Shown here: positions 44,109 through 64,000 of the stretch, in pieces
Position numbering within the stretch: the stretch's first letter is position 1
Layout: every line of letters starts with the position of its first letter
Assembly (NCBI RefSeq): GCF_900112815.1
Contig: NZ_FOND01000003.1
Location: 62,001 to 126,000 of the forward strand
Reading direction: 5' to 3'
DNA from: Blastococcus tunisiensis
GTDB lineage: Bacteria; Actinomycetota; Actinomycetes; Mycobacteriales; Geodermatophilaceae
DNA length: 64,000 nt
Notes under the pieces: generated by a model
What the model was told of the DNA's origin: nothing
Database searches by the model: none
The model's input: only the letters and a program-made list of their open reading frames with translations
Translations under genes and position numbers: made by a program

Positions 44109-45158
44109 ATGCGTAACCCGAAGACGTTCTTCCGCCCGTTGGCCGTCGGTGCGCCGGCTCCGGTGCGGGAGGTGCCCTTCCGTCCCTCCCGAATGCTGCA
44201 CTTCTTCGACCCCTCGAACGCGAAGATGGTCGCCAAGCTGCCCGATCTGGCCAGCAAAGTCGACGTGTTGCTCGGCAACCTCGAGGACGCCGTCCAGGCG
44301 GTGAACAAGGACGCCGCCCGCGCGGGCCTGGTCGACGTGGCCCGGACGGTGGATCTGGGCGGTACTCAGCTGTGGACGCGGATCAACAGTTTGGACTCCC
44401 CGTGGGCGCTCGACGACCTCACGACCCTGGTCACCGAGATCGGCAACGAGCTCGACGTCATCATGGTGCCGAAGGTGGAGGGTCCGGAGGACATCCACTA
44501 CGTGGACCGGCTGCTGGCGCAGCTGGAGGTCAAGGGTGGCGTTCGCAAGCCGTTGCTGGTGCACGCCATCCTCGAGACGGCCTCCGGCGTGGCGCAGGTA
44601 GAAGAGATCGCGCTGGCGTCCCCGCGCATGCAGGGCATCAGCCTCGGGCCGGCCGACCTGGGCGCCGATCGTCGGATGAAGACCACCCGGGCCGGCGGTG
44701 GGCACCCGTGGTACCTCGTCCGGGAGGACCCTGTTGACAGCGACGTGCACGCCCCCCGGGCGACCTACCTGCAGGACGTCTACCACTACACGATCGGCCG
44801 GATGGTCGACGCCTGCGTGCAGGCCGGCATCTATCCCTACTACGGCCCGTTCGGCGACATCGGCGACGTGGTCGCCTGCGAGGACCAGTTCCGCAACGCC
44901 TACCTGATGGGATGCGTGGGGACCTGGTCCCTCCACCCGGTGCAGATCGACATCGCCCGCCGCGTCTTCTCGCCCGACGTCTCGGAGGTCGCCTGGGCGC
45001 GCCGGGTCGTCGATGCCATGGGCGACGGCACCGGCGCGGTCATGATCGATGGCAAGATGCAGGACGACGCCTCGGTGAAGATGTGCCGCGTCACCCTCGA
45101 CCTCGCCGCCGAGCTCGCCGAGCGTGACCCCGAGCTCAAGGAGCTCTACGGCCTTTGA
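44109..45158 (+). CDS. HpcH/HpaI-type CoA-ester lyase (malyl-CoA/beta-methylmalyl-CoA lyase-like)
   Basis: The 349-residue TIM-barrel lyase has NLEDAVQAVNKDAARAGLV (the CitE Glu-Asp motif), TQLWTRINSLDS, VIMVPKVEGPEDIHYVD (PKVE metal motif) and ISLGPADLGADRRMKT. The C-terminal VAWARRVVDAMGDGTGAVMIDGKMQDD is a CoA-lid pattern. It is longer than bacterial CitE beta subunits and closest in layout to malyl-CoA or citramalyl-type lyases, which split a 3-hydroxyacyl-CoA into acetyl- or propionyl-CoA and an oxoacid. No citrate lyase alpha or gamma genes are near. ATG 44109 lacks a strong ribosome site. An IS remnant begins at its stop. Confidence 0.82.
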   Translation: MRNPKTFFRPLAVGAPAPVREVPFRPSRMLHFFDPSNAKMVAKLPDLASKVDVLLGNLEDAVQAVNKDAARAGLVDVARTVDLGGTQLWTRINSLDSPWALDDLTTLVTEIGNELDVIMVPKVEGPEDIHYVDRLLAQLEVKGGVRKPLLVHAILETASGVAQVEEIALASPRMQGISLGPADLGADRRMKTTRAGGGHPWYLVREDPVDSDVHAPRATYLQDVYHYTIGRMVDACVQAGIYPYYGPFGDIGDVVACEDQFRNAYLMGCVGTWSLHPVQIDIARRVFSPDVSEVAWARRVVDAMGDGTGAVMIDGKMQDDASVKMCRVTLDLAAELAERDPELKELYGL

Positions 45159-45159
45159 G

Positions 45160-45479
45160 CCCGCCGATGCGCCGCCGAGGGCGCCAGTCTGACTTCGGCG
45201 GCGATCGCCACCGGCCCGGGCCGCTGCTTCCAACGCAGGTGCACGATCTTTGCGCACCATCGGCTGGGGCGTGCGCCGCGGCGAGGAACGGGGCCGGCTG
45301 GAGCGGTCCACCATGCCGGCGGGGCCGAACTCGAGGTAGCAATCCCGCCACCTGGCCGCCGTGGGGCACGAGACCTCAAACCGCTCCGCCGCCCGGACTA
45401 CGGGCCAGCCCTGGTCGACGATGCAGCAGGCCAGCCGAAGCCGGCCGGTCTCGGTGAGCGGCGCATTGCGGTGAATCAA
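45160..45479 (-). pseudogene. IS481-family transposase remnant (N-terminal part, frameshifted)
   Basis: From TTG 45479 the minus frame reads LIHRNAPLTETGRLRLACCIVDQGWPVVRAAERFEVSCPTAARW and AGMVDRSSRPRSSPRRTP, the helix-turn-helix start of IS481 transposases. The frame then breaks near 45255; the next segment (KIVHLRWKQRPGPVAIAAEVRLAPS) is in another frame and ends where the upstream lyase gene stops (45158). The catalytic DDE domain is absent. The bases to 45613 are probably the element's end. Confidence 0.8.
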
Positions 45480-45613
45480 GGGGGACCTCCTGGGTCGGAG
45501 TGGGTGCCTGGCGGTTCCCACAGCCAAACCCGGAGGTCCCTCCCTGCCTCAAGATCAGCCTCATCCGCAGGTAGTGCACCAACCTGTCCGAGCAGTACAC
45601 CTAGCCCGCGGGC

Positions 45614-46267
45614 CTAGGTCGAGCGGCGCGGCCGGAGCCCGATCAACGTCGCCGCGCTGGCCACCAGGGCGGGTACCCCCGGCGGCGTCGCCGGGACGAG
45701 GGCCAAGGCGATGGCCCCGCCCAGCAGCGCGACGGTCGCCCGGCGCCGGTCGCGGATCTCGGCGAACAGCAGCCCGAGGAAGAACGCAGGGAAGACCGCG
45801 TCCAGTCCGAGCGCGTTCGCGTCGAGCGGGGGAGCGAGGACGCCGGCCACCGTGCCGCTCACCCAGCCGGCGTAGTGGATGGCCGCGTGCCCGATCAGAC
45901 GCTCGCGCTGGAAGCTCCCACCGGGCTCGGCGGCCAGCACCCACGCCGACGTGACGACCGCCTGACCTTCGAATGCACGCCGAACGCGGCCTCCTCGCAA
46001 CGAAGAGCCGACCGCGAAGCCCATGGGGACGAAGCGGGAGTTCACCAGCGCGGCGGCGCTGACGGCTGCGCCGAGCCCGCCGCCGGCGACGAGGATTCCG
46101 ACGGCGGCGAACTGCGCCGCACCGGCGTGCATGAGCACCGACATCGCGATGACGGCGGCGGGGGGCATCCCGGCCGCGCTCGCCACGACCCCGAAGGACA
46201 GTGCGAGGGCGAAATTCGCTGCCGTGTAGGGCACGCCTTCCCGCATGCCTCGGCGCCACTCGTTCAC
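45614..46267 (-). CDS. azlC: AzlC family branched-chain amino acid exporter subunit
   Basis: The 217-residue protein starts at GTG 46267 (GGGAAGGGG upstream; ATG 46312 is the longer option). It has about six to seven hydrophobic segments. GVPYTAANFALALSFGVVASAAGMPPAAVIAMSVLMHAGAAQFAA is the AzlC signature. AzlC normally works with the small membrane partner AzlD encoded directly downstream. Here the next 450 bp are IS481 debris and a convergent gene, so azlD is missing. Function is therefore doubtful. Confidence 0.85.
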   Translation of the reverse strand: MNEWRRGMREGVPYTAANFALALSFGVVASAAGMPPAAVIAMSVLMHAGAAQFAAVGILVAGGGLGAAVSAAALVNSRFVPMGFAVGSSLRGGRVRRAFEGQAVVTSAWVLAAEPGGSFQRERLIGHAAIHYAGWVSGTVAGVLAPPLDANALGLDAVFPAFFLGLLFAEIRDRRRATVALLGGAIALALVPATPPGVPALVASAATLIGLRPRRST

Positions 46268-46302
46268 CCGCGCCCCTTCCCTCGGCCCGGTGGTGCTCCT
46301 AT

Positions 46303-46311
46303 TGTCGGACA
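46303..46311. promoter_or_regulatory. TGTCGGACA palindrome between azlC and CitE-like genes
   Basis: The 9-bp palindrome TGTC-G-GACA lies in the divergent gap of azlC (46267) and the lyase gene (46399). A nearly identical TGTC-T-GACA lies within the promoter of the second CoA-transferase gene (62368-62376). The pattern is like FCD-type GntR sites. The link is hypothetical. Confidence 0.35.
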
Positions 46312-46398
46312 TTAACCGCCCGGGTCTCACGTTCCTGCTTCTGCGGGCCGCGTCCGCCCGAGATGTCGCCCGCCCGTCGCCGACCGCAGGGGTCCCCG

Positions 46399-47283
46399 GT
46401 GCTCGAGATCACGACATTGCTCTACGTGCCGGCCAACCGCCCGGACCGGATCACCACCGCCTGCCTCAGCGGCGCCTCGGGGATCGCGGTGGACCTCGAG
46501 GACGCCGTTGCCGTCGAGGCGAAGGCCGCCGCCCGCAACGCACTGCCCGACGTGCTGCGCCGGCACCTGCGCCCCGGCTGCGTGGTCGCCGTCCGGATCA
46601 ACGCGCTGGACACCGGTCTCGCGGAGGCCGACCTCACCGCGCTCGGGCCGGTCCTGGGAGCGACCGACCTCGTCATCGTCCCGAAGGTCGCGACGGCGGA
46701 TGACCTGCGCTCGGTGAGCGCGCGCCTGGCCGAACTGGAGGGAGCGCACGGTGTACCGGCGGGTCGCACACGCCTCCTGGCCCTCATCGAGACCGCGCGG
46801 GCGGTCCTGCACGCGGAGGAGATCGCTGCCGCCGGAGAGCGCGTCCTGACCCTCGGCTTCGGCGCCGCCGACCTCAGCGGCGAACTGGGCATCGAGCCCG
46901 CGCCGGGGAGCCTCGCGCTGGTTCAGGCCCGCTCCCAGGTGGTTCTCGCGGCCGCGGCGGCCGGCCTGCCGGCACCGCTGGACGCGCCGCACCTGCGGCT
47001 GCGCGACCCGGTGGGCCTGCGGAGGTCGGCCGAGCACGCCCGAGCACTCGGGTTCGGCGGGACACAGGTGATCCACCCGGAGCAGCTCGGCACGGTCCAC
47101 GAGGTGTTCGCGCCGACCCCCCAGGAGACGGCGTGGGCACGCGAGGTCCAGGAGGCGTTCGACCGCGCTGAGGCCGAAGGAACGGCGAGCATCCGGCTCG
47201 CCGACGGCACGTTCGTCGACTACCCGGTGGTGCGGCGGGCTCGGCGCATCCTCGCGGCGTCGGGCGAGGAGGCGGGGCGATGA
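46399..47283 (+). CDS. CitE-like CoA-ester lyase (citramalyl/malyl-type)
   Basis: The 294-residue lyase starts at GTG 46399 with AGGGG upstream. It has LLYVPANRPDRITTACLSGASGIAVDLEDAVAVEAKAAAR, VAVRINALDT and VIVPKVATADDL (Glu/metal motifs). LGFGAADLSGELGIE and GFGGTQVIHPEQLGTVHEVF follow. It is the stand-alone CitE type that cleaves citramalyl-CoA or 3-hydroxyacyl-CoA. It ends in ATGA overlap with the class III CoA-transferase gene. The trio of CoA-transferase, MaoC hydratase and CitE lyase resembles itaconate-type degradation in other bacteria. Confidence 0.88.
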   Translation: MLEITTLLYVPANRPDRITTACLSGASGIAVDLEDAVAVEAKAAARNALPDVLRRHLRPGCVVAVRINALDTGLAEADLTALGPVLGATDLVIVPKVATADDLRSVSARLAELEGAHGVPAGRTRLLALIETARAVLHAEEIAAAGERVLTLGFGAADLSGELGIEPAPGSLALVQARSQVVLAAAAAGLPAPLDAPHLRLRDPVGLRRSAEHARALGFGGTQVIHPEQLGTVHEVFAPTPQETAWAREVQEAFDRAEAEGTASIRLADGTFVDYPVVRRARRILAASGEEAGR

Positions 47284-48482
47284 GCGCCGGCGCAGGCGGC
47301 GCCCGACCGCTCGAAGGCGTCGTCGTCGTGACCCTCGAGCACGCCGTGGCCGCTCCCTTCGCCACTCGCCAGCTCGCCGACCTCGGGGCCAGGGTCATCA
47401 AGGTCGAACGGCCCGGCGTCGGCGACTTCGCGCGCGGCTACGACGAGACCGTCCGCGGGACGTCCAGCGTCTTCTTCTGGCTGAACAGGTCCAAGGAGTC
47501 CCTGACGCTCGACGTCAAGCATCCTCGGGCGCCGGAGCTGCTGGACCGGCTGCTCGAGCGCGCGGACGTCTTCGTGCAGAACCTCGCCCCGGGGGCGGCC
47601 CAGCGGCTGGGCCTGGGGGGCGACGAGCTCCTGGCCCGTCATCCGCGGCTCGTGGTCTGCAACATCTCCGGCTTCGGCGACGCCGGACCGTATCGGGACC
47701 GGAAGGCCTACGACCTGCTCATTCAGGGAGAGGCGGGGGTCATCTCGGTCACCGGCACCGAGGACGTCCCGTCGAAGGTCGGCATCTCGGTCGCCGACAT
47801 CGCCGGGGGGATGTACGGCTTCTCGGGGATCCTCGCCGCCCTCCTCCAGCGGAGCCGGACCGGTCGCGGCGACGTCCTGGACATCTCGCTGTTCGACGCG
47901 CTCATCGAGTGGATGGGGCATCCCTTGTACTACACCGAGTACGGCGGCACCCAGCCCGTGCGCATGGGTACGGCCCACCCGATCATCGCGCCCTACGGCG
48001 CCTTCGCGACCCAGGAGGGCGACGAGATCCTCGTCGCGGTGCAGAACGAACGCGAGTGGCGGGCGTTCTGCACCGTCGTGCTCGGCGATCCAGCCGCGGC
48101 GTCGGATCCGAGCTGGTCGACCATGAGCGGCCGGGTGGCCGACCGGACGGCGCTCGACGCGATGATCGGCGACCGGTTCGCGCAGCTGGGGTCCGGGGAG
48201 GCGCTCCGCCTGCTGGACGAGGCCAGCATCGCCTCCGCGCGGGTCAACCAGCTCCGCGACGTCGCCCGGCACCCGCAACTGGTGGACCGGGACCGGTGGC
48301 AGGACGTGGCAACCCCGTTCGGGCCCGTGCCGGGACTGCTCCCCACCGGCCTGCCGCGCGGTGCTTCGCCGCGCATGGACCCGGTGCCGGCCCTCGGCGA
48401 GCACACCGAGCAGGTCGTCGAGTGGCTCGGCTTCTCGGCCGAGGACAGAGCAGCGATGCGAGCGGACGGACTGTTCGAGTGA
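47280..48482 (+). CDS. Class III (CaiB/BaiF) CoA-transferase
   Basis: The 400-residue enzyme overlaps the CitE-like gene by ATGA. It begins PLEGVVVVTLEHAVAAPFATRQLADLGARVIKVERP and has LDVKHP, LVVCNISGFGDAGP and AYDLLIQGEAGVISVTGTEDVPSKVG with the conserved Asp of formyl-CoA transferase. The C-terminal PRMDPVPALGEHTEQVVEWLG is the swapped half. It moves CoA between a carboxylic acid and an acyl-CoA. In the likely pathway it would activate the acid substrate from succinyl-CoA or acetyl-CoA. Confidence 0.92.
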   Translation: MSAGAGGARPLEGVVVVTLEHAVAAPFATRQLADLGARVIKVERPGVGDFARGYDETVRGTSSVFFWLNRSKESLTLDVKHPRAPELLDRLLERADVFVQNLAPGAAQRLGLGGDELLARHPRLVVCNISGFGDAGPYRDRKAYDLLIQGEAGVISVTGTEDVPSKVGISVADIAGGMYGFSGILAALLQRSRTGRGDVLDISLFDALIEWMGHPLYYTEYGGTQPVRMGTAHPIIAPYGAFATQEGDEILVAVQNEREWRAFCTVVLGDPAAASDPSWSTMSGRVADRTALDAMIGDRFAQLGSGEALRLLDEASIASARVNQLRDVARHPQLVDRDRWQDVATPFGPVPGLLPTGLPRGASPRMDPVPALGEHTEQVVEWLGFSAEDRAAMRADGLFE

Positions 48483-48504
48483 ATCGATGGGGAGAGGGCG
48501 CGGC

Positions 48505-49035
48505 ATGAGGCACACCGGCTGGCAAGGGCGGTACTTCGAGGACTTCGTGGTGGGAGACGTCTACGAGCACCCGCTCTCGCGGACGATCACCTCCGCGGAC
48601 AACATCTGGTTCACCTTGTTGACGCAGAACACCGCCTCGGTCCACTTCGACCACGTCTACGCCGCGCAGACCGAATTCGGGAAGCCGCTGGTCAACTCCA
48701 CCTTCACGCTCGCGCTGGTCGCGGGGCAGAGCGTCTCCGACGTCTCGCAGAACGTGTTCGCCAACCTCGGCTGGACCGACGTGACGATGCCCGCCCCGGT
48801 CTTCGAGGGGGACACCGTGTCCTCGTGGTCGGAGGTTCTCGAGCTGCGTGAGTCGAGGTCCCGTCCCGACGTCGGCATCGTCACTGTCCACACGGAGGGC
48901 GTGAAGCAGACCGGCCAGACGGTCCTCGTGTTCACGCGGTCGGTGATGGTCTACAAGCGCGGGCACGGACCGTCACGCCGCGTGCCGACGGCTGAGAACG
49001 GCCCCCTTTCCCCCGGACGGACGGAGCAGTCATGA
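48505..49035 (+). CDS. MaoC-type acyl-CoA hydratase
   Basis: The 176-residue hotdog protein starts at ATG 48505 with GGAGAGGG 6 nt upstream. YFEDFVVGDVYEHPLSRTITSADNIWFT leads into TASVHFDHVYAAQTEFGKPLVNSTFTLALV, where the hydratase Asp/His positions fall. This long version with YFEDF is close to mesaconyl-CoA or itaconyl-CoA hydratases. It would hydrate or dehydrate an unsaturated acyl-CoA before CitE cleavage. Its stop overlaps the next start (ATGA). Confidence 0.87.
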   Translation: MRHTGWQGRYFEDFVVGDVYEHPLSRTITSADNIWFTLLTQNTASVHFDHVYAAQTEFGKPLVNSTFTLALVAGQSVSDVSQNVFANLGWTDVTMPAPVFEGDTVSSWSEVLELRESRSRPDVGIVTVHTEGVKQTGQTVLVFTRSVMVYKRGHGPSRRVPTAENGPLSPGRTEQS

Positions 49036-50189
49036 CCCAGCCCGACACCGATGTGCGCAAGGACCTGCGGGATCTCGTAGCCCGGGTGTGCGCCGACTTC
49101 CCCGACGACTACTGGCGACGCATCGACGAGGAACGCAGCTATCCGGAGGCGTTCGTCGACGCGCTGACCGGCACCGGACTGCTCGGTGCGCTGGTGCCCG
49201 AGGAGTACGGGGGCCTGGGCCTCGGGCTCGGGGATGCGTCGGTGATCCTCGAGGAGATCAACTACCGGGGCGGTAACGCGGCCCCGGTGCACGCCCAGCT
49301 CTACACGATGGGAGCCCTGCTCCGGCACGGGTCGGCTGAGCAGAAGGAGCGGTATCTGCCGGGGATCGCCGCCGGCAGCATCCGCCTGCAGTCCTTCGCG
49401 GTGACCGAGCCGGGGGCGGGCACGGACACCACGAACCTCAGCACCCGGGCGGTCCGGGACGGCGACCGCTACGTCGTGAACGGGCAGAAGATCTGGACGT
49501 CCCGCGTCCAGCACTCCGACCTCATGCTCCTGCTGGCACGCACCACGCCGAAGGAGGAGACGACCAAGCGATCCCAAGGGCTGTCGCTGTTCCTCGTCGA
49601 CATGCGGGATCTGAAGGGCCTCACCGTCCGGCCGATCCACACGATGGTCAACCACGAGACCAACGAGCTGTTCTTCGACGACATGGAGATTCCGGCCGAC
49701 ACCCTCATCGGTGAGGAGGGCAACGGGTTCAAGTACGTGCTCGACGGGATGAACGCCGAACGCATCCTGATCGCCTCCGAGTGCATCGGTGACGGGCGAT
49801 GGTTCGTCGAACGGGGTGCGGCCTACGCCGGGTCCCGGACCGTCTTCGGCCGGCCGATCGGCCAGAACCAGGGAATCCAGTTCCCGCTGGCGCGGGCCTA
49901 CGTCAACGTGTCGGCGGCGAACCTGATGCGCTGGAAGGCCGCGGACCTGTTCGACCAGCACCAGCCCTGCGGAGCCGAGGCGAACATGGCCAAGATGCTC
50001 GCGGCCGACGCCTCCTGGGAGGCCGCCAACGCCGCGCTGCAGACCCACGGCGGCTTCGGCTTCGCCAGCGAGTACCACGTCGAGCGGAAGTTCCGGGAGA
50101 CGCGCCTGTACCAGGTCGCCCCGGTGTCCACGAATCTGATCCTGTCTTACATCGGCGAGCACGTGCTCGGAATGCCTCGGTCCTTCTGA
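49032..50189 (+). CDS. Acyl-CoA dehydrogenase family protein
   Basis: The 385-residue flavoprotein has the two-domain layout: LVPEEYGGLGLGLGDASVILEEI, LQSFAVTEPGAGTDTTNLSTRA, YVVNGQKIWTSRVQHSDLMLLLA and the C-terminal QTHGGFGFASEYHVERKFRETRLYQVAPVSTNLILSYI. In classic members the catalytic Glu is in a YEGT motif; here the aligned stretch reads VAPVST, so Glu must come from elsewhere or the reaction differs. It ends the tightly coupled CitE-CoA-transferase-MaoC-dehydrogenase set. Confidence 0.9.
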   Translation: MTQPDTDVRKDLRDLVARVCADFPDDYWRRIDEERSYPEAFVDALTGTGLLGALVPEEYGGLGLGLGDASVILEEINYRGGNAAPVHAQLYTMGALLRHGSAEQKERYLPGIAAGSIRLQSFAVTEPGAGTDTTNLSTRAVRDGDRYVVNGQKIWTSRVQHSDLMLLLARTTPKEETTKRSQGLSLFLVDMRDLKGLTVRPIHTMVNHETNELFFDDMEIPADTLIGEEGNGFKYVLDGMNAERILIASECIGDGRWFVERGAAYAGSRTVFGRPIGQNQGIQFPLARAYVNVSAANLMRWKAADLFDQHQPCGAEANMAKMLAADASWEAANAALQTHGGFGFASEYHVERKFRETRLYQVAPVSTNLILSYIGEHVLGMPRSF

Positions 50190-50226: not shown

Positions 50227-50468
50227 TGACCTGACACACTTTCGTTACGTCAGACCATTGCGTCTGGTGGTGTCCGTCACTACCGTCGTGGTACGTCGTT
50301 CCGCATGGCGGGCCGATGAACGGGGTTCCGATAGCGGGCTGAGGCCCCCTGGCGGAGCGGCAGAGCAGAGCAAGGCAGGGCGGTGGAACGACCGCGGTCA
50401 TGCGGTCAGCGCGGCCCAGCTGGTCCGACGTCCGACGACACGTTGTCCCCTCGTCCTCAGGAGAGACT

Positions 50469-51668
50469 GTGCAGCCCTCGCGCAACCACATCCGGCGTAC
50501 CCGCATCGCCATCGCCTCCCTCGGCGTCGTCGTCACCGCAGCCGCATGCGGCGGCGACGGCGGCTCCGGCGGCGACGGCTCAGGCGGCGACGGCTCAGGC
50601 GGTGGCACGTACACGGTGGGGGCCGTCATCCCCCTCTCGGGCACGAACCAGGTCTACGGCGACGACTACCGCGTCGCCATCGACCTCTGCACGACCTACG
50701 CGAACGAGAACCTCGTCGAGGGCGAGCTCGAGATGGAGTACGCGGACGGCGAAGGTCTGCCCGCGCCGTCGGTGACCGCCATGAACCAGGTGGTGAACGT
50801 CCAGGACGCGATTGCCGTGCTCACCGGCTTCAGCGCGCCCACCAAGGCCCTGGCGCCGATCGCCAACCAGCTGAAGGTGCCGCTGTTCAACGGTGGCGCG
50901 AGCTCCCCCGACCTGCAGGGCCTGGGCGAATACGTCTTCAACAACATCCCGCTCGCCGACCAGCAGATCCCCGGCTCGACGACGTACGTGATCGAGGACC
51001 TCGGTGAGGAGTCGTGGTTCGTCATCTACTCGAACGAGACGCTCGGACTGAGCATGCTCGACGCCCTCGAGGAGGCCGTCCCCGAGCAGGGCGGCGAGAT
51101 CGTCGGCACGGCGGAGGTCAGCTCCCAGGCGACCGACTTCGGTGCGCAGGTCGCCGCCATCCGCAACGCCCAGCCCGACGCGGTCTTCCTGGCCACGACC
51201 AGCGGTGCCAGCGTCCCGACGATCATCCGGCAGATCCGTGACGCCGGCGTCGACGCCCAGCTGGTCTCCTACGCCGGCATGGACATCCCCGAGACCCTGG
51301 CCGAGCCGGGCGCCGAGGGGATGCTGTTCTCCTCGCAGAGCATCGACTACGAGACCGACAACGAGATCACGAAGTACTTCGTCGAGGAGTTCGAGGCGCA
51401 GAACCCGGGGGAGCGCCCGACGACCCTGCAGGCGAACTACTGCAGCGAGATGTCGATCATCGGCACCGCCATCGCCTCGCTCGAGGAGAGCGGCGACGAG
51501 GTGAACGGCGAGAACCTGATGACGGAGATCCGGGACATCGCCACCTTCGACGTCGTCGGTGGCGAGGTCACCTTCGCGGACGACGGCACGGTGAACCTGC
51601 CCATCGACGTGCGCGTGGTCGAGGACGGCGAGCTGAACGTCGCCTACACCTACACCCCCGAGGACTGA
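50469..51668 (+). CDS. livK: LIV-type ABC transporter substrate-binding lipoprotein
   Basis: The 399-residue protein starts at GTG 50469 with AGGAGAG just upstream. A hydrophobic stretch (IAIASLGVVVTAAAC) ends in a lipobox Cys, followed by a GGDGS repeat linker. The periplasmic-binding fold type I follows: YTVGAVIPLSGTNQVYGDDYRVAIDL, VLTGFSAPTKALAPIANQLKVPLFNGG and TLQANYCSEMSIIGTAI. It binds an amino acid or carboxylate. Its neighbours suggest an organic acid rather than leucine. Confidence 0.93.
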   Translation: MQPSRNHIRRTRIAIASLGVVVTAAACGGDGGSGGDGSGGDGSGGGTYTVGAVIPLSGTNQVYGDDYRVAIDLCTTYANENLVEGELEMEYADGEGLPAPSVTAMNQVVNVQDAIAVLTGFSAPTKALAPIANQLKVPLFNGGASSPDLQGLGEYVFNNIPLADQQIPGSTTYVIEDLGEESWFVIYSNETLGLSMLDALEEAVPEQGGEIVGTAEVSSQATDFGAQVAAIRNAQPDAVFLATTSGASVPTIIRQIRDAGVDAQLVSYAGMDIPETLAEPGAEGMLFSSQSIDYETDNEITKYFVEEFEAQNPGERPTTLQANYCSEMSIIGTAIASLEESGDEVNGENLMTEIRDIATFDVVGGEVTFADDGTVNLPIDVRVVEDGELNVAYTYTPED

Positions 51669-57569: not shown

Positions 57570-57654
57570 GAACCCGGGGCCCGCGGCGAACGGCCGGCCG
57601 GACGAGGCCCCTCCCGAGGACGACCACGTCGTCGTCACGACGTCATCGGACGGC

Positions 57655-58398
57655 GTGCGGACCCTCCGGCTGAACCGACCGGCGTCGCGCAATGCGCTGA
57701 GCGTTCCGCTCCGGGCGGCGCTCATGGCCGCCCTGGCCGGGGCCGCTGCTGATCCGGATGTCCGCTGCGTGATCCTCCGTGGTGACCAGCGCGCGTTCTG
57801 CGCCGGCGGTGACGTGAAGAGCATGGACCCGTCCGAGGCCCCGCTGGCCACGGTGCGCCGGATGGACGCCGCCGGGGCCATGGTCCGGGCGGTGTACGAC
57901 CTGCCGAAGCCCGTGATCGCGGCGGTCGAGGGCCCGGCGGTGGGCGCCGGCTTCAGCCTCGCGCTGGCCAGCGACATCGTGATCGCGTCGGACAGCGCGA
58001 CGTTCGGCGCGGCGTTCGTCAAGCGTGGCCTCGTGCCGGACACCGGGCTCAGCTACCTGCTGGCCCGGTCGATCGGGGTGGCCCGGACCAAGTACCTGGT
58101 CATGACCGGCGAGATGTTCGGCGCCGAGGCCGCGGAGGCGATGGGCATCGTCGCGGTCCGCTGCGGGACGGCGGAGTTCGAGGACCGGCTGGCCGCCCTG
58201 GCGTCGAGCCTGGCGGCGGGAGCGACCGGCGCCCTCGGCATGGCCAAGCGGATGCTCAACCGGGCGCTGGAGACCGACCTGGAGTCGGCTCTCACTCTCG
58301 AGGCCTTCGGCCAGGCCGTGGCGCGCACCACCGAGGACCACAAGGCGAGCGTGCGCAGCTTCAAGGCCAAGGAGCCGCCGCACTTCACCGGCCGCTGA
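57655..58398 (+). CDS. Enoyl-CoA hydratase/isomerase family protein (start uncertain)
   Basis: The crotonase fold is clear: TLRLNRPASRNALSV, FCAGGDVKSM (oxyanion hole), ALASDIVIASDSATFGAAFVKRGLVPDTG and GMAKRMLNRALETDLESALTLE. GTG 57655 is the first ordinary start in frame, but the usual first strand (HVVVTTSSDG) lies upstream. Between a stop at 57439 and that GTG the frame contains no ATG, GTG or TTG. ACG 57562 follows a strong GGAGGGG (57548-57554) by 7 nt and may be used. Metabolic role: hydration or C-C cleavage of an acyl-CoA. Confidence 0.85.
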   Translation: MRTLRLNRPASRNALSVPLRAALMAALAGAAADPDVRCVILRGDQRAFCAGGDVKSMDPSEAPLATVRRMDAAGAMVRAVYDLPKPVIAAVEGPAVGAGFSLALASDIVIASDSATFGAAFVKRGLVPDTGLSYLLARSIGVARTKYLVMTGEMFGAEAAEAMGIVAVRCGTAEFEDRLAALASSLAAGATGALGMAKRMLNRALETDLESALTLEAFGQAVARTTEDHKASVRSFKAKEPPHFTGR

Positions 58399-58453: not shown

Positions 58454-59521
58454 GTGGTGCAGCAGACGGCCCTACCCGCGGAGATGGACGCCGTGCGCCT
58501 CTCGGCGTTCGGCCCCCCGGAGGTGCTCGTGCCCGAACGGGTGCCGACGCCTCTGCCGGGAGACCAGGACGTCGTCATCGAGATGGCGTACTGCGGCATC
58601 TGCCGGCACGACGTGCTCAGCCGGCAGGGCGCGTTCCCGACCGTCCATCCGCCGATCACCCCCGGGCACCAGATCAGCGGGCACGTGGTGGCCGCCGGCG
58701 CCGACGTCCCGCCCGGTCTGCTCGACCGGCCGGTCACCACGATGCTGACGGTCGGCTGCGGGCACTGCCCGGCCTGCCTGGCCGGCGACCCCGCCAACTG
58801 CGCCACCGGCAGGCCCGCCTTCCTGGGCGACGACCGCGACGGCGGCTACGCCGAGTACGTCACCGTTCCGCACCACGCGGTCGTCCCGTTGCCCGACGGG
58901 ATGGACCTCCTGCAGGCGGCCGTCGTGAACTGCACCCTCGGCACGGCCTACCACGCGATGGTGCGGGGCGGTTTCGCGGCGGGGGAGACCGTCGTGGTCA
59001 CCGGCGCCAGCGGCGGGGTGGGCATCCACGCGGTGAAGCTGCTCGCGCACGCCGGCGTCCGGGTCCTGGCCGTCACGTCGCGGGAGGCGAAGGCGCCACT
59101 GCTGCGCACGGTCGGCGCGGCCGAGGTGATCGTGGCCCCCGATCTCGAGTTCGCGAAGCCCGTGCGGGAGCTGACCGGCGGTGCGCGCGCCGACGGCGTC
59201 CTGGACATCGTCGGCTCGCGCAGCCTGAACGAGTCGCTGCGCGCGCTGCGTGACGGCGGGCGCGTGGTGGTCCTCGGGAACGTCGACGGTGGGTCCACCA
59301 CCGTGAAGCCGGCGCTGCTCATCCTGCGCGAGCTGTCGATCCTCGGCACGCGGTCGGCCACGAAGGCCGAGCTGGCGGCCGTGCTCGACCTCGTGTCGTC
59401 CGGTCGGATCGAGGTCGAGGTCGGCGGTGTCTTCCCGTTCCGCGAGGCCGCGCGGGCGCACGCCGCGATGGAGGACGGCGGGCTCGAGGGCCGAGCCGTG
59501 CTCACGATGCCCGGCTCCTGA
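58454..59521 (+). CDS. Zinc-type alcohol dehydrogenase/quinone reductase family
   Basis: The 355-residue medium-chain dehydrogenase starts at GTG 58454 after GAGGGAGG. Structural zinc cysteines are in CGHCPACLAGDPANC, and the catalytic Cys is in CGICRHD. The usual GHE is GHQ (PGHQISGHVV), so the third ligand changed. The NAD(P) site is VTGASGGVGIHAVKLL. It could oxidise a hydroxyacid or aldehyde intermediate. The gene is followed by an enoyl-CoA hydratase after 76 bp. Confidence 0.87.
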   Translation: MVQQTALPAEMDAVRLSAFGPPEVLVPERVPTPLPGDQDVVIEMAYCGICRHDVLSRQGAFPTVHPPITPGHQISGHVVAAGADVPPGLLDRPVTTMLTVGCGHCPACLAGDPANCATGRPAFLGDDRDGGYAEYVTVPHHAVVPLPDGMDLLQAAVVNCTLGTAYHAMVRGGFAAGETVVVTGASGGVGIHAVKLLAHAGVRVLAVTSREAKAPLLRTVGAAEVIVAPDLEFAKPVRELTGGARADGVLDIVGSRSLNESLRALRDGGRVVVLGNVDGGSTTVKPALLILRELSILGTRSATKAELAAVLDLVSSGRIEVEVGGVFPFREAARAHAAMEDGGLEGRAVLTMPGS

Positions 59522-59597: not shown

Positions 59598-60401
59598 ATG
59601 GCACAGCAGGAGAGCGGCGCAACGGGGTCGCGCGTCCGCGTCGAGGAGCACGGTCCCTACGTCCGAGTCGTCACCATCGACAACCCCCCGGTCAACGCGC
59701 TGGACAGCGCCGCCTACCAGCAGCTCCTGCAGGCGTTCGAGGAGATCTCGGTGTCGAAGGACGTGCGCGCGGTGGTGCTCACCGCCGCCGGCCAGAGGGC
59801 GTTCTGCGCGGGCACCGACATCCGCGACTTCGGTCACCAGCACCTCGATGAGCCGCTCGAGCCGGTGCGTCACTCCAAGCTGGTCAAGAGCGTCTTCGAC
59901 GCGATCTGGGACTGCCCCGTCCCGGTCATCGCGTGCATCAACGGCCCGGCGATGGGAGCTGGGGTCGGGCTCGCGTCGTCCTGCGACGTCATCATCGCCG
60001 CCGACGACGCCGTCCTGGCGCTCCCGGAGATCAACGTCGGCGTTCTGGGCGGTGCGCGCGCACTGGCCCGGCTGGTTCCTCCACAGCGGGTCCGGCTGAT
60101 GATGTACACGGGCCGGCGCATCCCGTTCAGCGACCTTGTGCCGTACGGATCCGTCCTGGCCACGGTGCCGGTCGACGACCTGCTGAAGACCGGCCTCGAG
60201 CTGGCCACGGAGATCGCCGGAAAGAGCCCGACCGCGATCCGGTTGGCGAAGAAGGGCCTCACCCACCTGGAGGTCGCCGACCTCAGCCCCAGCGACGGCT
60301 ACAAGTACGAGCAGTCGCTCACCGAGCAGCTGGCGCACCACCCGGACGCCGCCCGCGCCGCCGCCGCCTTCTTCGAGGGCAAGACCGCAGTCTTCGACTG
60401 A
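59598..60401 (+). CDS. Enoyl-CoA hydratase/isomerase family protein
   Basis: The 267-residue crotonase starts at ATG 59598 with AGAGGAAG upstream. It has IDNPPVNALDSAAYQQLL, FCAGTDIRDFG, INGPAMGAGVGLASSCDVIIAADDAVLALPEINVGVLGGARAL and SPTAIRLAKKGL. The length and sequence are typical of catabolic enoyl-CoA hydratases. It is followed 8 bp later by the ADP-forming synthetase subunit gene. Confidence 0.92.
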   Translation: MAQQESGATGSRVRVEEHGPYVRVVTIDNPPVNALDSAAYQQLLQAFEEISVSKDVRAVVLTAAGQRAFCAGTDIRDFGHQHLDEPLEPVRHSKLVKSVFDAIWDCPVPVIACINGPAMGAGVGLASSCDVIIAADDAVLALPEINVGVLGGARALARLVPPQRVRLMMYTGRRIPFSDLVPYGSVLATVPVDDLLKTGLELATEIAGKSPTAIRLAKKGLTHLEVADLSPSDGYKYEQSLTEQLAHHPDAARAAAAFFEGKTAVFD

Positions 60402-60409
60402 GGGACCCG

Positions 60410-61837
60410 ATGACCATCGAGGAGAGCGGCACCGACATGGATCTGTTGCGGACGGTGTTCCGCCCGTCGTCGATCGCGCTGATCGGGGCGTCGGAGACCC
60501 CGACGAAGCTCATCACCTACCGGCCCATCGAGTACCTCCGGCGCTACGGGTACGCCGGTGGGATCTACCCGGTCAACCCGAAGTACGAGTCGGTGCAGGG
60601 GCTGCCGGCCTACGCGACGGTGGGCGCCGCCCCGGCGCCGCCCGAGATGGTGATCGTCGCGCTGCCGCGCCAACACGTGCTGGCCGCCCTCGAGGAGTGC
60701 GCCGCGGTGGGCACGAAGGTCGCCATCGTGTACTCCTCCGGGTTCGCGGAGGTGCCCGACGGCGTCGGCCTCCAGCAGGAGGTCGCCGACCTGTCCCGGC
60801 GCACCGGCCTGCGGGTGATCGGCCCGAACTGCCAGGGGATCGCCAACCTGGCCGAGGGGGTGTTCCCCTGCTTCTCGACCGCGTTCGCGACGGACGCTCC
60901 CGAGAGCGGGCGGGCCGCCATCATCTCCCAGTCGGGCGCGGTCGCCGCGATGATCTACAACTCGTGGACGGCCGTCGGTGGGGGCGCCAAGTACTGGGCG
61001 TCGACCGGCAACGAGGCGGACCTGACGGTGGCGCAGCTCGCCCGTGCCGCCGTGGAGGACCCGGACGTCGACCAGCTGCTGCTCTACCTGGAGAGCGTCC
61101 GGGACGCCGAGGTGCTCAGCGCGCTCGCCGACCGAGCGGCGGAGCTGGGCAAGCAGGTCGTCCTCTACCGGTCCACCCGGTCGGAGCACGGCTGGGCGGC
61201 GGCCGGGCGGCACACCGGGGCCGGCGCGACGGGCTCCGACCGGCTCGCCGACACGGTGCCCGGGGGTACGCACCTGCTGCACGCCGACTCGCTCGACGAG
61301 CTGATCGCCCTCGCGCAGGTGGGGCGATGCGGCAAGCCGGTCGCCGGCCCCAGGATGGCCGTGATCAGCAACTCCGGCGGCCTCGGCGTGATGACGGCGG
61401 ACGCGGCGACGGCCGCGGGGTTCACCCTCGAGGACCTCACCCCGGGCAACCGCGACGCGCTGGCCACGCTCCTGCCCGGCTTCGCATCGGTGCAGAACCC
61501 GGTCGACGTGACGGCGCAGCTGCTCAACGACCCGGCTCTGCTCGAGTCCGCGCTGCCGGTGATGCTCAGCGACACCGGGGTCGACGCGCTCGTGGTCGCT
61601 CTCGGTGCGGTCGGCGACGGCTACGACGTGGAGCAGATCTGCCGGGACGTGCTGCGCGCGCACGAGGAGTCGAGCAAACCGGTCGCCGTCGTGTGGGTCG
61701 GCAGCCGGATCGATGTCCGTCGCCGGCTCGGAGCCGCCGGGGTGCCGGTGTTCACGAGCGTCACCGAAACGGTCGCCGCCCTGGCCCGGCAGCGGGACGC
61801 CGCGCTCCGGGCGCCGGCAACCGTGGGACGGGGGTGA
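60410..61837 (+). CDS. ADP-forming acyl-CoA synthetase alpha-type (CoA-binding) protein
   Basis: The 475-residue protein starts at ATG 60410. It has the CoA-binding domain (SSIALIGASETPTKLITYRPIEYLRRYGYAGGIYPVNPKYE), two succinyl-CoA-ligase-like domains (IISQSGAVAAMIYN, WASTGNEADLTVAQLARAAVEDPDV) and a His in AGRHTGAGATG that corresponds to the phospho-His site. The ATP-grasp beta domain is missing and no gene for it follows. It may use a beta subunit encoded elsewhere, or act as a CoA-transfer or regulatory protein. The next gene overlaps (GTGA). Confidence 0.85.
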   Translation: MTIEESGTDMDLLRTVFRPSSIALIGASETPTKLITYRPIEYLRRYGYAGGIYPVNPKYESVQGLPAYATVGAAPAPPEMVIVALPRQHVLAALEECAAVGTKVAIVYSSGFAEVPDGVGLQQEVADLSRRTGLRVIGPNCQGIANLAEGVFPCFSTAFATDAPESGRAAIISQSGAVAAMIYNSWTAVGGGAKYWASTGNEADLTVAQLARAAVEDPDVDQLLLYLESVRDAEVLSALADRAAELGKQVVLYRSTRSEHGWAAAGRHTGAGATGSDRLADTVPGGTHLLHADSLDELIALAQVGRCGKPVAGPRMAVISNSGGLGVMTADAATAAGFTLEDLTPGNRDALATLLPGFASVQNPVDVTAQLLNDPALLESALPVMLSDTGVDALVVALGAVGDGYDVEQICRDVLRAHEESSKPVAVVWVGSRIDVRRRLGAAGVPVFTSVTETVAALARQRDAALRAPATVGRG

Positions 61838-62325
61838 GTCCCGTGCGTCCCTTCGAGCCCTACTACTTCGAGGACCTCTCGGTCGGGCAGGAGTTCGAGA
61901 CGGCCCGGCGGACGGTCACCGAGACCGACCTGATGGTCTTCGCGATGCTGTCCAGCGACTGGAACGCCGTGCACACCGACGCACTGGCGGCGGGGGACTC
62001 CGAGTTCGGCGGGCGGATCGTGCACGGAGCCCTCGGCCTCATGATCACCACCGGTCTCGTGCAGCGCTCCGGCATGTTCGAAGGCTCGGCGGTCGCCCTC
62101 CTCGGCTTCTCGGGCTGGGCCTTCGACCGGCCGTTGCGGGTGGGGGACACCGTCTTCACCCGCCTGCGGATCGCAGGTCTGCGTCGCACCAGCCGGGGAG
62201 ACCGGGGGGTCATCAACCGCGAGCTCGAGCTGATCAACCAGGACGGCGACGTCGTCCAGCACGGCCGCAGCGACTTCATGGTGCGCTGCCGGGACGCCGG
62301 AGAGCTACCTGCACCGACCGGATAG
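61834..62325 (+). CDS. MaoC-type acyl-CoA hydratase
   Basis: The 163-residue hotdog protein starts at GTG 61834, overlapping the previous stop. YYFEDLSVGQEFETARRTVTETDLMVFAMLSSDWNAVHTDALAAGDSEFGGRIVHGALGLMITTGL holds the hydratase Asp/His positions. It hydrates a trans-2-enoyl-CoA. It is the last gene of the LIV-to-MaoC run before the separate promoter at 62353. Confidence 0.9.
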   Translation: MSPVRPFEPYYFEDLSVGQEFETARRTVTETDLMVFAMLSSDWNAVHTDALAAGDSEFGGRIVHGALGLMITTGLVQRSGMFEGSAVALLGFSGWAFDRPLRVGDTVFTRLRIAGLRRTSRGDRGVINRELELINQDGDVVQHGRSDFMVRCRDAGELPAPTG

Positions 62326-62352: not shown

Positions 62353-62382
62353 TTGACGGACGCTAAATGTCTGACATATATT
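62353..62382 (+). promoter_or_regulatory. Strong promoter with an embedded TGTCTGACA palindrome
   Basis: TTGACG (62353-62358) and TATATT (62377-62382) are spaced by 18 bp. The 11-bp palindrome ATGTCTGACAT (62367-62377) lies between and over the -10, the classic position for a repressor. A GntR-like match occurs at 46303-46311. Confidence 0.65.
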
Positions 62383-62423
62383 CGTCCCGTCGCGGACACC
62401 GAGACGGGGAAGTCTCACGCTCG

Positions 62424-63713
62424 ATGCAGCGGTTCGCGACCGGAGACGAGAGGCATGGGCTGACGGTGACGGCTGACGGCGGCAACGGGCATCCCTCGCC
62501 GGGGAGCCCGGTGCTCGAGGGCATCCGGGTGCTGGACCTGACCCAGCAGCTGTCGGGTCCCTACGCGGGGATGATCCTGGCCGACCTCGGAGCCGACGTC
62601 ATCAAGGTGGAGGCGCCGCACCGGCCGGACCCCGCCCGCGTGGTTCCCGGCCAGCGCGTCGGCGGGCACAGCTCCTACTACCTGAGCCTGAACCGGAACA
62701 AGCGCAGCATCGCCCTCGACCTCAAGGATCCCTGCGACCACGAGGCGTTCATGCGGCTGGTCGAGGAGTCCAACGTCGTCCTGGACAACTTCCGGCCGGG
62801 GGTCACGACACGACTCGGTGTCGACCGCGCCGCCCTCGAGGCGCGCAACCCGGCGATCGTCACCTGCAGCGTGACCGGGTTCGGTGAGACCGGCCCGGAA
62901 CGGAACCGCCCGGCCTACGACTACCTCATGCAGGCTCTCGCCGGCTCGATGGGCCTCACCGGCGAGCCCGACGGGCCGCCCACCAAGTACGGCCTCTCGG
63001 TGGTCGACCACGTCGGCGGGCTGTTCGCGGTCATCGGGGTCCTGGGGAGCTTGCTCGGCCGGCGTGATCCGCAGGCGCCCGGCCGGCACGTCGACGTGTC
63101 GCTCCTGGACAGCCATCTGTCGATGTTGTCATACGTGGCCGCCGACCTCCTGGCCGGCGGTGAGCCGCCGGTGCGCCAACGACTGTCCTCCCATCCGAGG
63201 GCCGTGGCGGCCCGGGTCTACCGCACCGCCGACGGCTGGGTGGTCCTCATGCCCCTCGCCGAGCACTTCTGGCCCCGGCTGTGCGCCGTTCTCGGCGCCG
63301 ACGAGCTCGCGGACGACCCGCAGTTCGTCGACGCCGAGGCCCGCCTCGCACATCGCGACGAGCTCTTCGCGATCCTCGAACCGCTCGTGGCATCGCGTAC
63401 CACCGCCGAGTGGATGGACCTCATGGTCGCCGCCGACGTCCCGGCCGCGCCGGTCCAGTCTGTCGCCGAGGCCATCGCGATGCCCCAGACGACCGCCCGC
63501 GAGATGGTGGTCGAGCTCGCGCACCCGGCGTACGGCGCCTACCGCGCCATGGGCAATCCGGTGAAGATCTCCGCGTCCGGACCCGCGCTGGTGCGCGGCG
63601 CACCGGAGCTCGGCGAGCACAACGGCGAGATCCTGCACGCCCGTGGGATCCCGGTGCACGACCGGGCGACGCCGTGCCTCCCCGTCGAGCTCCCCGCCGT
63701 GGCCGAGCAGTGA
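62424..63713 (+). CDS. Class III (CaiB/BaiF) CoA-transferase
   Basis: The 429-residue enzyme starts at ATG 62424; an upstream ATG at 62367 is inside the promoter palindrome and is rejected. GIRVLDLTQQLSGPYAGMILADLGADVIKVEAPHR, SLNRNKRSIALDLKDP, IVTCSVTGFGETGPERNRPAYDYLMQALAGSMGLTGEPDGPPTKYG (Asp site) and DVSLLDSHLSMLSY are CaiB/BaiF motifs. It has its own promoter, suggesting regulation separate from the importer run. Confidence 0.93.
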   Translation: MQRFATGDERHGLTVTADGGNGHPSPGSPVLEGIRVLDLTQQLSGPYAGMILADLGADVIKVEAPHRPDPARVVPGQRVGGHSSYYLSLNRNKRSIALDLKDPCDHEAFMRLVEESNVVLDNFRPGVTTRLGVDRAALEARNPAIVTCSVTGFGETGPERNRPAYDYLMQALAGSMGLTGEPDGPPTKYGLSVVDHVGGLFAVIGVLGSLLGRRDPQAPGRHVDVSLLDSHLSMLSYVAADLLAGGEPPVRQRLSSHPRAVAARVYRTADGWVVLMPLAEHFWPRLCAVLGADELADDPQFVDAEARLAHRDELFAILEPLVASRTTAEWMDLMVAADVPAAPVQSVAEAIAMPQTTAREMVVELAHPAYGAYRAMGNPVKISASGPALVRGAPELGEHNGEILHARGIPVHDRATPCLPVELPAVAEQ

Positions 63714-64000
63714 GCGCCCGGGCGGCCGGCGCCGCGGAAGAACTCGTCGTCGAGCGGCGCGGACGGGTGCTCGAGCTGACGATCAACCGGCCCGACCGGC
63801 GCAACGCCCTCACGCCGAGCCTGATCGGGGCCCTCACCGGTGCGCTCACCGCGGGCGCCGCCGATCCCGAGGTACGGGCCGTCCTGCTGACCGGACAGGG
63901 CCGCAAGGCCTTCTGCGCCGGCTTCGACCTCGGTCACTTCGACGACGCGGGCGCCGCGCCCGGCGGTGAACGCGACCTCGTCGACGGCCTGGCGACGACG
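63710..64000 (+). CDS. Enoyl-CoA hydratase/isomerase (truncated by window end)
   Basis: A GTG at 63710 overlaps the CoA-transferase stop as GTGA. The first 97 residues show the crotonase start: LTINRPDRRNALTPSLIGALT, AVLLTGQGRKAFCAGFDLGHF. It continues beyond the window. Confidence 0.9.
   Translation, partial: MSARAAGAAEELVVERRGRVLELTINRPDRRNALTPSLIGALTGALTAGAADPEVRAVLLTGQGRKAFCAGFDLGHFDDAGAAPGGERDLVDGLATT

Follow-up and report, generated by a model that had tools for sequence, protein, structure and literature searches.

A mosaic acyl-CoA catabolic region in Blastococcus tunisiensis with a putative citrate-synthase-type lyase that lacks the catalytic aspartate

The window analysed here is a stretch of 64,000 nucleotides of Blastococcus tunisiensis (contig NZ_FOND01000003.1) within a 5.04-Mb assembly of 43 contigs, and its part from position 44109 onwards is rich in genes for the catabolism of CoA thioesters. 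This region is a mosaic of blocks, neither one operon nor, by the three marker genes mcl1, acad1 and ccl, one co-inherited set. Block A (citE2-coaT1-maoC1-acad1, 46363-50189) resembles itaconate and methylsuccinate clusters, and block B (livKHMGF-acs-ccl-ech1-adh-ech2, 50400-60401) combines a LIV importer and an acyl-CoA ligase with Ccl, a protein of citrate synthase type. Our preferred reading, held at a little less than even confidence, sees the region as an island for acyl-CoA catabolism, mosaic and probably acquired, in which the blocks would feed one another rather than form one operon. We infer that Ccl may be a non-canonical lyase for citramalyl-CoA-like esters.

A recurring LIV-ligase-lyase core and an itaconate-type module

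The best evidence that part of the region may form a functional unit is the recurrence of block B in two other genomes. The search of genome contigs with ccl yielded 52 loci, the best being in a Frankiales metagenome-assembled genome (MAG; locus L006), where the whole livKHMGF-acs-ccl-ech1-adh-ech2 run is colinear with the window at 80.7% DNA identity over 10.2 kb. The alignment breaks at window position 60404 and restarts at 74456 with the genes of a thiolase-like protein and its DUF35 partner (thl-DUF35), followed in L006 by maoC3-abh-MBL (inverted) and then acs2-maoC4, at 80 to 85% DNA identity. The stretch 60405-74455 was therefore inserted here, or was lost or moved in L006; the comparison covers 20.8 kb, and the 14-kb block could lie elsewhere in that genome. 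A Bacillota MAG (L007, 53% GC) carries, on one strand, genes for an SDR, Thl, DUF35, MaoC, an acdA-like synthetase, two acyl-CoA dehydrogenases (ACADs) and Ccl, and on the other livKHMGF-acs-adh. In these two loci, and so in two phyla, the genes for the LIV importer, the ligase, the MDR dehydrogenase, Ccl and the thiolase/ChsH2 pair are associated. All of them together were seen in these two of the 52 loci, and a looser form is seen in G035, where LIV genes, ligase, a ccl-family gene, mcl1 and an ACAD resembling methylsuccinyl-CoA dehydrogenase (Mcd; 46%) lie within a 19.5-kb stretch. The original prediction that importer, ligase and citrate-synthase-type protein belong together is thus supported.

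The gene inventory, which is based on open frames, codon-position composition and scans for Pfam and NCBIfam families, is as follows.

44109..45158, + strand: mcl1, homologue of Chloroflexus-type malyl-CoA / beta-methylmalyl-CoA / citramalyl-CoA lyase (best PDB matches 6kin, 4l7z/4l80)
45165..45548, - strand: N-terminal remnant of an IS481-family transposase (Pfam LZ_Tnp_IS481, 33.2 bits, cut-off 22.2)
45614..46309, - strand: azlC-like permease gene, start approximate (Pfam AzlC, 89.3 bits; open frame 45614-46408)
46363..47283, + strand: citE2, CitE-type C-C lyase of itaconate-cluster type (45% identity to the CitE of the Rhodococcus rhodochrous cluster)
47280..48482, + strand: coaT1, class III CoA-transferase, itaconate CoA-transferase candidate (Pfam CoA_transf_3, 353 bits)
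48487..49035, + strand: maoC1, RipB/Ich-like MaoC hydratase (NCBIfam RipB_Ich, 197.5 bits, curated cut-off 340)
49032..50189, + strand: acad1, ACAD of (RS)-methylsuccinyl-C4-CoA dehydrogenase type (67-73% to cluster ACADs)
50400..51668, + strand: livK, substrate-binding protein (Pfam Peripla_BP_6, 181 bits)
51704..52561, + strand: livH, permease (Pfam BPD_transp_2; 89% to L006)
52589..53569, + strand: livM, permease (Pfam BPD_transp_2; 77% to L006)
53566..54303, + strand: livG, ATPase (Pfam ABC_tran, on 53566-54300)
54300..55004, + strand: livF, ATPase (Pfam ABC_tran, frame 53496-55004)
55072..56694, + strand: acs, AMP-forming acyl-CoA synthetase (Pfam AMP-binding, 199 bits)
56763..57569, + strand: ccl, protein of the citrate-synthase-type lyase family with Thr204 for the catalytic Asp (NCBIfam PRK06224.1-5, 308 bits, cut-off 193)
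57634..58398, + strand: ech1, crotonase, its start unsettled, with the first GTG in frame at 57655 (Pfam ECH_1, 179 bits)
58454..59521, + strand: adh, zinc-type MDR dehydrogenase/reductase (Pfam ADH_zinc_N, ADH_N; 49% in the Bacillota locus L007)
59598..60401, + strand: ech2, crotonase (Pfam ECH_1, 159 bits)
60410..61837, + strand: acdA, alpha-type protein of ADP-forming acyl-CoA synthetase (Pfam CoA_binding_2, Succ_CoA_lig, Ligase_CoA_2; frame 60398-61837)
61834..62322, + strand: maoC2, MaoC hydratase (Pfam MaoC_dehydratas, 67.9 bits)
62367..63713, + strand: coaT2, class III CoA-transferase (Pfam CoA_transf_3, 417 bits)
63710..64000, + strand: ech3, third crotonase, continuing to about 64510 past the window end (Pfam ECH_1, 170.9 bits; L003:5711-6511)

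These scans agree with the gene content first proposed, namely two CitE/HpcH proteins, two class III CoA-transferases, two MaoC proteins, one ACAD, a five-gene LIV importer, an AMP-forming ligase, a citryl-CoA-lyase-like protein, a zinc dehydrogenase and an alpha-type protein of ADP-forming synthetase; of the three crotonases, two are complete in the window and the third (63710-64510) runs past its end. The near-continuous run on one strand holds for the six 4-base overlaps (citE2/coaT1, maoC1/acad1, livM/livG, livG/livF, acdA/maoC2 and coaT2/ech3) and for the LIV (HAAT) importer, whose binding protein, two permeases and two ATPases are encoded in a single run, but it is interrupted by the IS481 remnant, the minus-strand azlC gene and a gap of 210 bases between acad1 and livK. 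The boundary at 64000 does not hold, with the cluster extending on the same contig to about 84.2 kb.

The genes of block A are nearly contiguous, and the proposed likeness of its adjacent CoA-transferase, MaoC hydratase and CitE lyase to the itaconate trio is supported; with acad1, the block resembles an itaconate/methylsuccinate cluster. Acad1 is 67 to 73% identical to the ACADs in clusters of Rhodococcus rhodochrous, Paraburkholderia, Paracoccus and Deinococcus (L088-L091), three of which include a CaiB/BaiF CoA-transferase and all four of which include MaoC and CitE. All four gene types of block A occur together in the Deinococcus and Paraburkholderia records and on the R. rhodochrous plasmid pGD02.2.1, whose cluster comprises IclR, CitE, PrpD, CoaT, MaoC and ACAD. 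Homologues of the CoA-transferase, MaoC and CitE trio lie together in L088, L091 and L138. CoaT1 is 52 to 53% identical to the CoA-transferases of three itaconate-type clusters and MaoC1 69% identical to the MaoC of the R. rhodochrous cluster, while CitE2, which retains the lyase residues R, E, D and D, has its nearest counterpart, among the CitE proteins examined, in an itaconate-type cluster. Arrangement and ACAD identity suggest that block A is a module of itaconate/methylsuccinate type.

A separate cluster in G443 (L138) encodes CoaT, MaoC, ACAD and CitE proteins that are 57%, 59%, 57% and 40% identical to those of block A, together with a second CoA-transferase, a PrpD and a pair of a hydroxyisobutyrate-dehydrogenase-like and a CMD protein. 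This pair is 51.5% and 82% identical to the products of the genes at 67401-68760 downstream of the window, and the pair found there is therefore also known beside an itaconate-type module. The hydroxyisobutyrate-dehydrogenase-like gene adjoins the CMD gene at both L003 and L138, and the 142-residue CMD protein (L003:10333-10761 against L138:18375-18767) is unusually conserved, with 82% identity over 131 residues to a protein from a different family of the class.

In the reading that we favour, block A would act as its homologues do: CoaT1 would make the CoA ester, Acad1 would dehydrogenate methylsuccinyl-C4-CoA to mesaconyl-C4-CoA, MaoC1 would hydrate the latter to a citramalyl-CoA, and CitE2 would split this into acetyl-CoA and pyruvate. 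In block B (50400-60401, continued at 74.4-84.2 kb), the LIV importer would take up a hydrophobic or branched carboxylic acid, Acs would activate it, and the crotonases, the MDR dehydrogenase, the MaoC hydratases and the thiolase-like/ChsH2-type pair would process it, whereupon Ccl may cut a tertiary intermediate of 2-hydroxy-2-alkylsuccinyl-CoA type into acetyl-CoA and a 2-oxo acid. The mcl1 gene and the 60405-74455 block would be separate additions. The original model, in which a compound is imported, activated with CoA and cleaved at two C-C bonds, can be reconciled with these genes, but the unit is smaller than claimed.

The Ccl family and its genomic partners

Ccl matches Pfam Citrate_synt with 76 bits and the NCBIfam model PRK06224.1-5 with 308 bits (cut-off 193), and the closest solved protein is the citryl-CoA lyase 6hxp (E 3.8e-28). 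Thr204 of Ccl aligns with the catalytic Asp of 6hxp and of ATP-citrate lyase. We aligned 86 rows of the family, which include the window protein, the own genome copy L058, several near-copies and 29 rows taken from the 30 best loci in relatives after leaving out the own one; the length filter removed L048. The column of Thr204 holds Thr in 47, Ala in 31, Ser in 5 and Asn, Ile and Val in one row each, and Asp or Glu in none of the 86, whereas the controls carry Glu (the organism's own citrate synthase) and Asp (a citrate-synthase-like protein of G071). His69, His154, His157 and Asp161-Pro162-Arg163 are invariant in all 86 rows; in citrate synthase, the histidines and the arginine of the DPR motif, kept in Ccl, hold the 2-oxo acid.

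The label "citryl-CoA-lyase-like" thus needs revising, as the catalytic carboxylate is missing, and for the same reason we do not take Ccl to be an ordinary citryl-CoA lyase. An ordinary enzyme, cleaving citrate or methylcitrate with acdA as part of a citryl-CoA synthetase, would explain why the PRK06224.1-5 score exceeds its cut-off and why 6hxp is the best solved match, but we consider this highly improbable given Thr204, the 86 rows and the controls. Near ccl no citryl-CoA synthetase was seen, only the alpha-type acdA, in a search that did not extend to other parts of the genome; acdA has no ATP-grasp domain among its Pfam matches and lies outside the part shared with L006, being the first gene of the block absent at that place there.

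Neighbours of ccl were counted within 400 bases in 58 loci, using unvalidated profiles that were built from few sequences and name only the genes they match; the loci include near-identical pairs such as L022/L023 and L033/L037, two paralogue loci and 12 in which ccl is flanked on one side by less than 2 kb. An AMP ligase is the most frequent neighbour (20 loci), followed by TctC (10), ACADs of methylsuccinyl-CoA dehydrogenase type (10), other ACADs (4), SDR and CoA-transferase (3 each), crotonase and MDR (2 each), and PrpD and MFS (1 each). A CoA-activating enzyme, either AMP ligase or CoA-transferase, therefore adjoins ccl in 23 of the 58 loci and is the commonest theme, which suggests a CoA ester of 2-hydroxy-2-alkylsuccinate type as the substrate of Ccl. 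Two additional loci, L119 and L120, likewise have a ligase gene next to that of the ccl family. The ten loci with an Mcd-type ACAD beside ccl are in Proteobacteria and do not count L014, where a TctC gene lies between ccl and the ACAD; in Roseibium, ccl, an Mcd-type ACAD and MaoC stand in a row with PrpD nearby. The stretches examined of all 58 loci gave no match to the CitE profile.

The partner type follows the ccl tree, with 4 changes against a mean of 12.3 after shuffling and none of 200 shuffles as low. The tree holds 60 of the 86 rows, comes from a quick search and has several long branches, and its partner labels were set by hand from the neighbour list, except that L014 was labelled Mcd, the window ligase and L075 (G082) CoA-transferase, as was L061 (G013) by analogy with G010. 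The window ccl is sister to L006 (support 98) and by path nearest to L007 and ligase-linked members.

The family is found in records of Proteobacteria, Chloroflexi, Bacillota and Actinobacteria. A paralogue with about 40% identity lies beside a CoA-transferase gene in the own genome, G010 and G082. In the paralogue loci L096, L097 and L098, an MDR-type gene is near, at least two of the three have an amidohydrolase-like gene, and L096 and L097 have IclR. On plasmid pBB2 of Cupriavidus necator N-1 (L093), the gene order is ccl-CoaT-LeuC-LeuD with a TctC gene near; this set would suit a conversion of citraconate to (R)-citramalate followed by cleavage of citramalyl-CoA.

In the open part of PubMed Central, within the portions accessible to us, we found no paper that deals with this Asp-less lyase family beyond citrate metabolism or with its link to Mcd-type ACADs; neither the main text of PMC12290011 nor the accessible part of PMC9007349 contains a word beginning "citryl". 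A wider proposal, which we regard as doubtful, is that the Asp-less "citryl-CoA lyases" with the motif GHPxHK would constitute a separate citrate-synthase-type family splitting esters similar to citramalyl-CoA (2-alkylmalyl-CoA), a convergent counterpart that replaces CitE beside Mcd-type ACADs and ligases and that, in this genome, would provide the cleavage step of an undescribed, LIV-fed pathway for an alkylsuccinate-forming acid. If so, a family that NCBI models name citryl-CoA lyase would do something else, inferences on citrate metabolism drawn from that annotation would need correction, and a further lyase would join the branched C5-dicarboxylate pathways (itaconate, methylsuccinate), as a second, unrelated solution to the cleavage of citramalyl-CoA-type esters that uses the citrate synthase machinery minus its usual acid/base residue. 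If the ordinary part alone holds, the region would still present an operon of itaconate/methylsuccinate type linked to a conserved core of LIV, ligase and lyase genes.

Mosaic origin and alternative readings

Among 394 genomes of the class, the own genome being counted in each figure, mcl1 is found in 56, acad1 in 12 and a close ccl in one (E<=1e-60), and of the 12 acad1 genomes only the own one also has mcl1. Acad1 occurs in 3 of 67 relatives (own included). Of 116 relatives, the own genome among them, no other carries a ccl with more than 47% identity, and the 15 genomes of the same genus have the ccl paralogue at most. The idea of the whole region as one unit fails on these distributions and on the absence of the 14-kb block at the corresponding place in L006: mcl1, acad1 and the 14-kb block occur separately in relatives, while the liv-acs-ccl core stays together. 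The GC content is 0.68-0.73 at 42-64 kb and mostly 0.74-0.77 upstream, and the island was likely acquired by this lineage. A search for borders by tRNA genes and repeats gave one tRNA-Arg gene at 3350-3424 and only weak repeats in 38-52 kb. The segment at 41.6-44.1 kb is poor in genes and is perhaps the left border, and just upstream of the island lies the gene of an aromatic-ring hydroxylase-type flavoprotein (FAD_binding_3 and Rng_hyd_C; 38741-40531, + strand).

Three observations favour a link between blocks A and B and may point to joint function: a divergent coaT1-maoC1-acad1 set lies upstream of block B in L006, on the opposite strand, with an IclR gene just before livK whose product is 70% identical to the IclR of the R. 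rhodochrous cluster; an Mcd-type ACAD adjoins ccl in 10 of 58 loci; and the G035 stretch combines both kinds of gene.

Several findings weigh against the preferred reading. The absent carboxylate is the main reason to doubt any Claisen-type reaction by Ccl, and could mean that the protein does no retro-Claisen chemistry at all. The rows linked to Mcd fall in a tree group of 36 rows (support 87, not starred) with the window ccl outside, so that the Mcd link does not automatically extend to the window protein, and a MaoC match lies within 2.5 kb in 3 of 11 Mcd-linked loci, several of which are incomplete. CitE2 and MaoC1 score below the curated NCBIfam cut-offs for RipC/Ccl (172.8 against 375 bits) and RipB/Ich (197.5 against 340 bits), and block A is therefore assigned to the itaconate/methylsuccinate type on its gene arrangement and the identity of its ACAD, without being a proven member; these scores lower the claim of itaconate cluster identity but not that of like working. 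Among eight actinobacterial loci with acad1 homologues (L117, L118, L135-L140; from 7 of the 11 other class genomes matched, G026 included, and from G022), CoaT, MaoC and CitE genes lie beside the ACAD gene in one (L138) and a ccl match in none; in L135 and L136 a CoA-transferase gene, and in L139 a PrpD gene, is directly beside it. The coaT1-maoC1-acad1 trio has 68% DNA identity to that of L006 and block B 81%, which indicates that the blocks were not moved as a single piece. LivK matches only generic binding proteins among solved structures, with no LIV ligand indicated, and a GC content of 0.70-0.73 persists past the cluster to about 92 kb and gives no clean island border.

Part of this evidence would fit accretion without joint function, in which independent operons (mcl1; the itaconate/methylsuccinate-type genes; LIV-acs-ccl; the CoA-transferase/mutase block) with unrelated substrates gathered at one insertion hotspot. 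The marker distributions with their single shared genome, the lack of ccl in the eight acad1-homologue loci, the IS481 remnant and azlC gene that separate mcl1 from citE2, the missing 14-kb block and the inverted, more divergent trio of L006 all suit this account. It is opposed by the ten ccl loci with an adjoining Mcd-type ACAD, by the flanking of the same core by two different trios in two genomes and by the itaconate-type cluster of G443, which carries the hydroxyisobutyrate-dehydrogenase-like/CMD pair shared with the 14-kb block. We judge accretion possible, though well short of an even chance.

Family scans of the enlarged cluster name, after ech3, a methylmalonyl-CoA-mutase-type large subunit, a hydroxyisobutyrate-dehydrogenase-like protein, CMD, MmgE/PrpD, a GntR regulator, a third class III CoA-transferase beyond the window end, a thiolase-like protein with a ChsH2-type DUF35 partner, an MBL hydrolase, an alpha/beta hydrolase and MaoC proteins; a second ACAD, IclR, a second azlC, a second ligase and the more distant MaoC genes were identified by eye or similarity, and a luciferase-type oxidoreductase by eye from the sequence. 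The mutase (L003:6517-8106) has no B12-binding domain among its Pfam matches and no small subunit was noticed nearby; its RQY and R motifs resemble those of methylmalonyl-type enzymes. The two azlC-like genes (45614-46309, - strand; 80950-81684, + strand) lie near opposite ends of the enlarged cluster.

Ordinary branched-chain amino acid catabolism served by the LIV importer would account for the family of the importer and for the hydroxyisobutyrate-dehydrogenase-like and mutase-type proteins beyond the window. We find it very unlikely, since no branched-chain keto-acid dehydrogenase was recognised among the genes scanned, Acad1 is 67 to 73% identical to ACADs of itaconate-type clusters, and hardly any of the relatives searched carries ccl or acad1, whereas such catabolism would be expected to be widespread.

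Another reading is that block B degrades the side chain or ring of an alicyclic or terpenoid acid, with Thl-ChsH2/DUF35 as retro-aldolase and Ccl performing a second cleavage. The best solved match of Thl is 4u4e ("Thiolase", E 3.3e-114), followed by lipid-transfer proteins including 6ok1 (E 2.1e-38), its DUF35 partner has zf-ChsH2 and OB_ChsH2_C domains, thl-DUF35 directly follows block B in L006 and is in the same cluster in L007, and FMO-like flavoproteins are encoded both at the ccl locus L031 (57.4 bits) and within the itaconate-type cluster of R. rhodochrous (43.1 bits). However, an FMO-like domain match is no proof of Baeyer-Villiger activity, no ring monooxygenase was recognised among the window-cluster genes scanned, and thl and DUF35 lie 14 kb from block B here, which leaves this reading rather unlikely.

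For mcl1, the best PDB matches are 6kin (E 7e-139) and 4l7z/4l80 (E 4.5e-137). The protein keeps all four mechanistic residues (R91, E156, D183, D319), which correspond to R92, E157, D184 and D318 given for Chloroflexus-type malyl-CoA lyase in the accessible part of PMC3832036. Despite their common CitE/HpcH label, mcl1 and citE2 are different enzyme kinds. The same part of PMC3832036 describes Glu at the lid position of a CitE-like protein as the signature of malyl-CoA thioesterase. In three (L114-L116) of the four relatives' mcl1 loci examined, out of seven, mcl1 is directly beside a CitE-like gene with the lid Glu, and the two are a candidate malyl-CoA lyase/thioesterase pair (apparent malate synthase). 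An azlC2-like gene also lies 0.5 kb from mcl1 in G089 (L114). CitE2 was considered as this thioesterase-type CitE and rejected, being 33 to 34% identical and having Asp instead of Glu.

Whether mcl1 belongs to the ethylmalonyl-CoA pathway or to an apparent malate synthase, and not to the island, is in our view evenly balanced. The own genome has ccr (605 bits) with a mutase-like gene about 6 kb away, and its match to isocitrate lyase (ICL) is only partial (64.5 bits); all 8 of the 67 relatives with mcl1 (the own genome and seven others) also have ccr, and the lid-Glu neighbours fit. On the other side, ccr exceeds its cut-off in 47 of the 59 genomes without mcl1 as well, so that the overlap says little and the counts neither show nor exclude that mcl1 tracks ccr; the own genome has no close thioesterase-type partner (best 39%, lid residue not checked); and in the fourth locus, G035, mcl1 adjoins the ccl-family gene among LIV genes, ligase, crotonases and the Mcd-like ACAD.

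Comparison with known systems

The malyl-CoA lyase of Chloroflexus aurantiacus (4l7z/4l80) aligns with mcl1 over the full length with 460 bits. Its partner in the 3-hydroxypropionate bicycle, 2-methylfumaryl-CoA isomerase, differs from the CoA-transferases found here; coaT1 and coaT2 were considered for this role and rejected, since TIGR04253 gives them 69.7 and 90.5 bits, respectively, where its cut-off is 725.

In the degradation of steroid side chains, Ltp2-ChsH2 performs a retro-aldol step. The adjacent thl and DUF35 genes just beyond the window, the latter encoding a zinc ribbon and an OB domain, resemble this pair, but Thl is closer to 4u4e and no steroid genes were recognised among the genes scanned.

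With citryl-CoA lyase 6hxp and the C-terminal domain of ATP-citrate lyase, Ccl shares the citrate-synthase-type family, a length of about 260 residues, His69, His154 and the DPR arginine. It differs by the absence of the catalytic Asp throughout its family, by the motif GHPxHK, which reads GHHxHK in 14 of 86 rows, by the extra invariant His157 and by adjoining acyl-CoA ligases and ACADs.

The closest parallel to block A is the itaconate/methylsuccinate cluster ict-ich-ccl with mcd and mmgE, which the accessible part of PMC12290011 describes for Cupriavidus necator and Pseudomonas aeruginosa and whose ACAD is there a (RS)-methylsuccinyl-C4-CoA dehydrogenase. Both have a CoA-transferase, a MaoC hydratase, a CitE and an ACAD of this type, whose genes in block A adjoin and in part overlap one another, although our comparisons were made with homologues in plasmid records rather than with the assayed C. 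necator and P. aeruginosa enzymes. Unlike that cluster, block A has no MmgE/PrpD isomerase gene within 46363-50189, prpD (68870-70306; 34-36% to cluster PrpDs) lying about 19 kb downstream, and it is joined to the LIV-acs-ccl block.

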